From Niabella yanshanensis (GTDB lineage: Bacteria; Bacteroidota; Bacteroidia; Chitinophagales; Chitinophagaceae), in contig NZ_CP139960.1 of NCBI RefSeq assembly GCF_034424215.1, positions 1,984,001 to 2,048,000 on the forward strand: a DNA stretch of 64,000 nt, read 5' to 3'. Shown here piece after piece: positions 34,023 to 34,686 of this stretch. How positions within the stretch are numbered: the first letter of the stretch is position 1; each line of letters starts with the position of its first letter. The translations under genes were made by a program, and so were the position numbers. The notes under the pieces were generated by a model. The model ran no database searches. It was not told the DNA's origin and saw only the letters and a list, made by a program, of their open reading frames with translations.

Positions 34023-34047
34023 TTAGTCTATTATTTTAATAGACTAA
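34023..34047. promoter_or_regulatory. Perfect 11-base palindrome, likely operator
   Basis: TTAGTCTATTA (34023-34033), TTT, TAATAGACTAA (34037-34047). The centre coincides with the expected -33 position of the promoter whose -7 box is at 34058-34065 (20-base spacing), so a bound repressor would block it. The same half-site appears at 46320-46330. Confidence 0.7.
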
Positions 34048-34057
34048 AAAGAACTAC

Positions 34058-34065
34058 TATATTTG
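34058..34065 (+). promoter_or_regulatory. -7 box of the cysteine-rich short ORF
   Basis: TATATTTG, four bases before the ATG at 34070. A TTTT at 34034-34037 sits at the -33 position. Confidence 0.65.
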
Positions 34066-34069
34066 CTTC

Positions 34070-34129
34070 ATGACTATTTCGTTAGCATCCAAACATACCT
34101 ATTGTTGTTGCTGTGGGCCATCGTTCTAA
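34070..34129 (+). CDS. 19-codon ORF with four consecutive cysteine codons (putative leader peptide)
   Basis: ATG at 34070 to TAA at 34127-34129 encodes MTISLASKHTYCCCCGPSF. A strong-looking -7 box lies four bases upstream and a palindrome covers the -33 region. Leader peptides rich in one amino acid typically sense the charged tRNA for it, so a cysteine-responsive attenuator is the natural reading. No cysteine or sulfur gene follows; the next gene, at 34258, encodes a small unknown protein. Translation is inferred. The 301-base gap between flanking genes holds nothing else recognisable. Confidence 0.5.
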   Translation: MTISLASKHTYCCCCGPSF

Positions 34130-34257
34130 AACTGCCCGCTACAATATTAATATACCGCCATAGCAAAGTATTATTCAAAAAATTCCAAACCCGCTTTTCA
34201 TCACATTCGTACCTATCTCATTATTTAACCACGGCCATCAGCCATTAAACCTTTTTT

Positions 34258-34527
34258 ATGCCACTATTTTCAGCAAACATTGTATTACATTATGCAGGCC
34301 AGCAAGATTTTGCTTTACTAGATGAAGCCTTAAGATCGAATCACTTTTTTCCCGGGAACGCACCAAATGAAGACCTGGCGGAAAATCAAACCAGGGAAGC
34401 CATTACACTGCAGTATCTTAAAAAAGGTAATTTAGCCTTATTGGAGGTAATGGAACTGGTGAAAAATGCGGCCGCCAAAACCGGAAAAAAATTCTCCTTC
34501 ACCGTTTTGAAAAACAGGTATGAGTAG
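34258..34527 (+). CDS. Small protein of unknown function
   Basis: 89 residues, no signal peptide or membrane helix, mostly helical and acidic in the middle (NEDLAENQTREAITLQYLKK). I do not recognise the family. It lies downstream of the cysteine-rich leader ORF and upstream of a hairpin terminator, so it may be the gene controlled by that leader. Confidence 0.55.
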   Translation: MPLFSANIVLHYAGQQDFALLDEALRSNHFFPGNAPNEDLAENQTREAITLQYLKKGNLALLEVMELVKNAAAKTGKKFSFTVLKNRYE

Positions 34528-34598
34528 TTGAGACAGGCCGTGCAATCAGGGTGAATTGGCAAGTATTGATTTCACTGTTTCTTGTTGTTTTACATGAG

Positions 34599-34623
34599 AA
34601 GGGCCGTTTTCACGGCCCTTTGT
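34599..34623. terminator. Hairpin terminator after the 89-residue gene
   Basis: Perfect 9-base stem AAGGGCCGT (34599-34607) / ACGGCCCTT (34612-34620), TTTC loop, only a short T run. It separates this gene from the convergent PepSY-like gene. Confidence 0.7.
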
Positions 34624-34686
34624 AATTAATTTGGAAAGCCATACTTTCCTGACAATACGGCTCGCTTATTCAAATGGACCAGGCTG

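Follow-up and report, generated by a model that had tools for sequence, protein, structure and literature searches.

A polycysteine leader behind an operator-like palindrome in Niabella, probably the remainder of a cysteine operon

Introduction

What does a cysteine-rich leader peptide control when no cysteine gene follows it? The question is raised by a locus in a soil bacterium of the genus Niabella (genome of 5.54 Mb in a single contig; G000), where, within the 64,000-nucleotide stretch of DNA analysed here (the window), a short open reading frame with a run of Cys codons stands between an operator-like palindrome and the gene for an 89-residue protein. A first-pass annotation had read this arrangement as the layout of a repressor-controlled cysteine attenuator, and comparison with related genomes supports that reading; as judged from sequence, the locus is probably what is left of a cysteine/sulfur operon, its control region and first gene, after the loss of the rest in this lineage.

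Sulfur genes under CymR-type repressors of the Rrf2 family carry a long palindromic operator; in mycobacteria, leaderless polycysteine sORFs were reportedly tested by Canestrari et al. in 2020. In Actinobacteria, leader peptides with a Cys run near the stop, lacking terminators and associated with suspected Rho sites, are predicted before cys operons (PMC1262725; see also PMC9094748).

The leader and its promoter

The palindrome (34023-34047) reads TTAGTCTATTA-TTT-TAATAGACTAA, with perfect 11-bp arms around a 3-bp TTT loop and a 23-bp core, TAGTCTA-N9-TAGACTA, at 34024-34046. No other perfect inverted repeat with 11-bp arms and a loop of at most 8 bases exists in the 64-kb window, where a Markov null gave a mean of 0.1 (20 runs), and the 25-bp pattern of the palindrome, with up to three mismatches allowed, occurs once in the window and not at all in 100 shuffles. 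A putative -7 promoter element, TATATTTG, follows on the + strand at 34058-34065, 34 bases past the start of the core and 4 bases 5' of the leader ATG; it is of the form TAnnTTTG, the Bacteroidota -7 consensus (PMC7366714). Since TATATTTG by itself is frequent (10 copies in the window, both strands counted), its weight rests on its fixed position. The leader ORF, MTISLASKHTYCCCCGPSF, comprises 19 codons on the + strand at 34070-34129 (ATG at 34070, Cys codons at 34103-34114, stop at 34127-34129) and closes with a run of four Cys codons, then four more sense codons, then the stop; ORFs of at most 60 codons with four consecutive Cys codons number one in the window, against a null mean of 0.05. 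Read directly, these positions proved to be correctly described in the first-pass annotation, which had claimed an 11-base palindrome, TATATTTG, a 4-base gap and an ORF of 19 codons, four of them Cys. Beyond the stop lie a C-rich, G-poor, unstructured spacer of 128 bases (34130-34257, + strand), a candidate Rho-loading region, and the next gene, which encodes the 89-aa protein (34258-34527, + strand).

Two other species of the same genus, N. defluvii I65 (G003) and N. hibiscisoli THG-DN5.5 (G012), provided the comparison; among 59 genomes searched (the window genome and relatives), the 89-aa protein was found in these two and the window genome. Spacing is identical in all three, TATATTTG starting 34 bases after the start of the core and ending 4 bases before the leader ATG, which would make the transcript leaderless or nearly so. 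The leader peptides of the window genome, N. defluvii and N. hibiscisoli (MTISLASKHTYCCCCGPSF, MYILPAFKSTYCCCCRC and MNILLAFTPLYCCCCC, respectively) all keep YCCCC, those of the relatives ending in CCCCRC and CCCCC; outside the Cys run the peptide is variable and its N-terminus drifts, the run near the end being retained. Conservation of the ORF in relatives, earlier named as a check on the leader, is borne out by these YCCCC peptides with their common promoter spacing, leaders of the window type (A-type) being known from three species only. The C-rich stretch of the spacer has no sequence conservation among the three species; the final ~26 bases before the 89-aa ATG (34232-34257) are almost invariant, and the remaining spacer drifts.

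The operon behind the leader in related species

In N. defluvii and N. hibiscisoli the 89-aa gene is followed, in this order, by cysM (PF00291), a serine-acetyltransferase-like gene (cysE; PF00132), an SrpI-like shell gene (PF19307), that is, a type-2A encapsulin with a palindrome of its own upstream, and a cysteine desulfurase gene (PF00266) whose product has a long unannotated N-terminus. Pfam searches with a single copy per gene, or with gene fragments, gave the domains PALP, Hexapep, SrpI-like and Aminotran_5; PF00266 is present in both loci (L014 and L015), the PF19307 shell adjoins the desulfurase in L015, and the N. defluvii shell lies in two pieces with stops. Several operon genes are frameshifted in the two assemblies (L014, L015), possibly through sequencing errors, so that protein-level counts there are rough. 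The operon closes with a terminator-like hairpin, recognised by eye, beyond which lies the PepSY-like gene that is also found in the window.

The window has the same flanking genes on both sides, minus a block of ~4.8 kb. The junction lies at 34544-34563, where cysM, cysE, the encapsulin and the desulfurase are absent and the bases, by eye, match neither flank clearly; similarity to N. hibiscisoli ends near 34543 and resumes at 34558, and that to N. defluvii ends at 34531 and resumes at 34560, the resumed similarity falling in the tail behind the lost desulfurase. This retained tail (34564-34625, + strand) carries the hairpin that stands after the desulfurase gene in both relatives (34601-34618; GGGCCG at 34601-34606 and CGGCCC at 34613-34618, then T-rich), a terminator by eye which the consensus scan omits. 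With G002 as the outgroup, a phylogeny of the left flank (4.5 kb) pairs the window genome with N. hibiscisoli and sets N. defluvii with G002 (ultrafast bootstrap 98); 127 sites support this pairing, against 76 and 73 for the others, and among protein sites 18 against 5 and 1. Since the window genome and N. hibiscisoli are sisters and N. defluvii stands outside, loss of the operon in the window lineage is the simplest history, and the evidence favours loss of the cysM-cysE-encapsulin-desulfurase block between about 34544 and 34563.

Encapsulin is present in six of the 17 genus genomes and was not found in the window genome, which retains other cysM-, cysE- and cysK-like genes. Relocation of the operon within this genome was considered and rejected, given the missing encapsulin and the absence of the palindrome from both its cysM-like gene (70% identity) and its cysE-cysK-like pair. 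The genus has a second encapsulin-desulfurase locus (L031-L034, in G004, G014, G009 and G005), beside a gene resembling ileS; the stretch read there contains no palindrome, cysM or cysE.

A palindrome regulon and its candidate regulator

The palindrome was sought with the pattern TAGTCTAYW7RTAGACTA, at most one mismatch being allowed, and with the reversed pattern as a control. Of 17 Niabella genomes, 14 carry it (41 forward sites summed, against one for the control), as do 78 of 244 Chitinophagaceae genomes, five of the 244 being Niabella (control matches in four genomes). It is shared upstream of several sulfur genes, several of them named by eye and some by Pfam; the search for palindrome and leader at sulfur genes of this and related genomes, suggested at the outset, thus brought to light a unit that recurs in Niabella, mostly at sulfur genes. 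At the 92 oriented sites, TAnnTTTG lies 34-36 bases after the start of the core in 16, at -5 in 12, at -8 to -10 in seven and elsewhere in five; the 52 with none in the scanned stretch are expected for the half that face away. Palindromes that cover the -33 or the start region are consistent with a repressor operator.

The earlier pointer to a regulator of the Rrf2/CymR type is plausible and has comparative support. Proteins of the Pfam Rrf2 family (PF02082) are present in all 17 genus genomes, and one ortholog group (2679075-2679470 in the window genome) in 16 of the 17, frameshifted in some; in G007 the ortholog lies just upstream of peroxiredoxin-cysH-cysD-cysN-like genes. The sole genome without the ortholog, G006, is also without the palindrome; G013 (74% complete) and G016 (90%) have the gene and no palindrome at one mismatch or fewer, so that co-occurrence alone is not significant and is suggestive only. 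Upstream of the Rrf2 gene (L112; about 2679.5 kb in the window genome), TAAATTTG overlaps a TAGACTA half-site, from which the gene could be autoregulated.

PolyCys leaders elsewhere

Leaders were counted where at least three consecutive Cys codons lie within 260 bases of a palindrome, with a stop within nine codons and an in-frame start upstream. In 34 fetched Niabella loci such leaders stand at 20 of the 92 oriented palindromes, against 1.4 expected at random positions in the same loci, and the other 72 have none. The 20 are not independent, falling by downstream gene into five groups (10 PhyH-like, four SusC-like and two each of three others) which were judged unrelated by eye; the window's own leader is outside this count, and several start codons are uncertain. 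In other genera, 35 palindromes (70 orientations) yielded six leaders, against ~0.8 expected from a background of 0.0118 per orientation, the count covering the 30 loci returned by the family palindrome search and not all its sites; two genomes of another genus have a common leader, ending CCCRQATY before the stop, in front of a PhyH-like gene (PF05721 in G274).

The window genome has four palindrome-linked polyCys leaders, one of them in the window. Of the other three (gene names by eye), MLLSATYSFYNRRERMLASTLCGCCCC precedes a PhyH-like gene, a leader ending AISCCCS precedes SusC/SusD-like genes, and one ending GVSCCCG precedes a TonB-receptor-like gene that closes a series of cysH-, cysD-, cysN-, cysJ-, cysI- and cysE-like genes. 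Leaders of the SusC type (from 4949168 onward in this genome, that is, L013 5169-5560; L056, L067, L081) are followed, unlike that of the window, by long, strong predicted hairpins, computed without a shuffle control; Rfam gave no match at those of L013, L067 and L056. Given these hairpins, one mechanism need not fit all, and what acts downstream of the leader may differ within the regulon. In the sulfur cluster of the same genome, which is rich in palindromes, a SAM riboswitch (L012 10507-10621, - strand) precedes a gene for a Cys/Met-type PLP enzyme.

The 89-residue protein

The description of the following gene as encoding an unrecognised 89-residue protein holds: it has no Pfam match over the cut-off and no NCBIfam match, and a sequence search against solved structures returned nothing above a cut-off. 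Pairwise among the three species, dN is 0.11-0.17, dS 1.5-1.9 and dN/dS 0.075-0.09, values that span whole branches with dS near saturation. A profile built from the three sequences finds the family in 17 of 244 family genomes. Palindromes being counted at up to two mismatches within 6 kb, 10 of the 16 genomes other than the window genome have a palindrome or a sulfur gene nearby. The palindrome is near in six (G160, G182, G074, G066, G274, G124), ending 202, 13 and 138 bases before the gene in G160, G182 and G074, respectively; among the neighbours are an SrpI-like encapsulin (G066, G124), a sulfatase in G187 and, by eye, in G109, a Cys/Met PLP enzyme in G250 and, by eye, in G199, and, in G274, genes resembling cysM and cysE. 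The remaining six (G245, G159, G190, G097, G062 and G226, the last with 1.5 kb read) showed no palindrome and no evident sulfur gene.

The two alternatives left by the first-pass annotation, a new protein of the sulfur regulon or a leader separated from its operon, both seem true, in view of the 10 of 16 family neighbourhoods and of an operon that is missing here and present in two relatives: the 89-aa protein would belong to the regulon, and the leader would have lost its operon.

The fold predicted from 16 sequences (pLDDT 78) is beta-alpha-beta-beta-alpha-beta, ferredoxin-like, and matches many unrelated ferredoxin-like domains, including M20-family peptidases, the ISDra2 transposase, NikR and PII-like proteins; being this widespread, the fold is no guide to function. 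An earlier model, built from three sequences, was of unusably low quality (pLDDT 61), and no match in its fold search had E below 0.05. That the protein is a sensor or adaptor is speculation. A wider and rather unlikely proposal is that Chitinophagaceae possess a two-layer sulfur regulon, one operator combined with several separately arisen polyCys leaders, in which the 89-aa family would be a small ACT/PII-like sensor or adaptor (of cysteine, O-acetylserine or the encapsulated desulfurase, for example), still useful after the loss of the encapsulin.

Loss, gain or decay

The history of the locus may also be read in the opposite direction, the leader and the 89-aa gene being a self-contained sulfur-regulated unit behind which the cysM-encapsulin block was inserted in the relatives. 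Two genomes of this family, G160 and G182, do have a palindrome ending 202 and 13 bases, respectively, before an 89-aa homologue that has no such block attached, and four other Niabella genomes have the encapsulin elsewhere. Nevertheless, with N. defluvii outside the sister pair (bootstrap 98), insertion would call for two like events or for a later loss anyway, and the 89-aa homologue precedes the encapsulin in G066 and G124 too; we consider insertion unlikely. It is just as improbable that the leader is a decaying, non-functional remnant, merely not yet erased after the operon was lost. The operon that it served is indeed gone, the cysM-like gene and the cysE-cysK-like pair elsewhere in the genome lack the palindrome, and the low dN/dS, spanning whole branches, may reflect mostly the time before the loss; against this, the palindrome is perfect, the Cys run and the promoter spacing are intact, and the three other polyCys leaders of the genome still stand before genes. 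A fortuitous meeting of an AT-rich palindrome with a random Cys-rich short ORF, for which the frequency of short ORFs and the variable leader N-terminus might be invoked, is contradicted by the null models and by conservation in relatives and can practically be dismissed. The likely reading of the locus is that of the control region and first gene of an operon otherwise lost.

How the leader may work

In the proposed mechanism, the palindrome would be the operator of an Rrf2-family repressor, which would block the promoter while sulfur is plentiful; on its release, the near-leaderless leader would be translated. With sufficient Cys-tRNA the ribosome would reach the stop and depart, exposing the C-rich stretch, at which Rho would end transcription before the 89-aa gene; with cysteine short, the ribosome would stall on the Cys codons beside the C-rich stretch and shield it, and transcription would proceed. 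The sole gene remaining under this control here would be that of the 89-aa ferredoxin-like protein. We infer the response to cysteine, the role of Rho and the binding of the regulator from the sequence.

The spacer (34130-34257) contains 36 C and 10 G, a C-over-G excess equalled by one of 66 comparable upstream regions (one of 60 when the window genome alone is considered), and its predicted folding is no better than that of shuffles (z 0.38; whole leader, z 0.02); an unstructured, C-rich spacer agrees with Rho-dependent attenuation. The consensus scan, which is not exhaustive, lists no terminator-like site on the + strand between the leader and the 89-aa gene; it is an imperfect scan, as it also omits the hairpin at 34601-34618. 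A trp-type attenuator with an intrinsic terminator was set aside, a terminator hairpin with a U run not being found on the + strand by this imperfect scan and the spacer having a z of 0.38. Rfam yields only a tRNA in the window, and only a SAM riboswitch and a tRNA in seven related loci, so that no catalogued riboswitch explains the leader.

Control might instead be exerted on translation: stalling at the Cys codons would free the region around the start of the 89-aa gene, where the last ~26 bases upstream of the ATG may fold into a small hairpin. No other part of the spacer is as well conserved among the three species as this start-proximal block, a 3-bp GGC/GCC mini-hairpin is predicted, and mycobacterial polyCys leaders are described as translation attenuators in PMC13236596 and PMC9031893; the predicted folding, however, is no better than that of shuffles (z 0.02 and 0.38), and we hold translation attenuation to be possible and less probable than not. 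With the bases just before the 89-aa ATG nearly invariant, there is room for control at the level of translation.

Relation to known systems

The Niabella leader resembles those of Actinobacteria in being a short ORF with a Cys run near the stop, placed before cysteine genes without a terminator hairpin, with Rho suggested as the terminator and the start codon near the promoter; the placement before cysteine/sulfur genes holds in N. defluvii and N. hibiscisoli, the window keeping only the 89-aa gene. It differs in belonging to another phylum, in the palindromic operator-like site at the promoter, in the several leader groups per genome and in its targets, which include encapsulin, TonB/SusC-like receptors and a PhyH-like gene; the window copy has, in addition, lost its cys genes. 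With the CymR-type repressors the system shares a palindromic site at sulfur genes and, in G007, an Rrf2-family gene adjoining sulfate genes, whereas the candidate site is TAGTCTA-N9-TAGACTA and the phylum is other than that of the CymR proteins.

Family 2A encapsulins of Synechococcus, with a desulfurase cargo, are induced by sulfur starvation, knockouts having no growth defect (PMC8049743), and serine acetyltransferases are among the most enriched neighbours of this family (PMC8346489). The block of the Niabella relatives is alike in its SrpI-like shell, desulfurase and serine-acetyltransferase-like gene; unlike the SrpI operons, it stands behind a polyCys leader and the 89-aa ferredoxin-like protein, has a palindrome before the shell gene, and is absent from the window. 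Within the same phylum, leader-peptide attenuation is suspected in flavobacteria (PMC9723704) and Bacteroides (PMC7366714), where putative leader peptides lie upstream of operons for amino-acid biosynthesis or within long 5' UTRs; the available portions of these papers mention neither Cys runs nor a coupled operator. A literature search (best-ranked matches in a limited open-access set) found no polyCys leaders in Bacteroidota.

Significance

PolyCys attenuators are known in Actinobacteria, and the Niabella locus would be a Bacteroidota variant. If the proposed reading is true, cysteine-codon attenuation would reach from Actinobacteria into Bacteroidota, where it would be tied to a palindromic operator and to family-2A encapsulins; Chitinophagaceae would acquire a searchable sulfur-starvation regulon, in which a small uncharacterised protein family would find its place, and the copy in the window would be an example of a leader that has outlived its operon.
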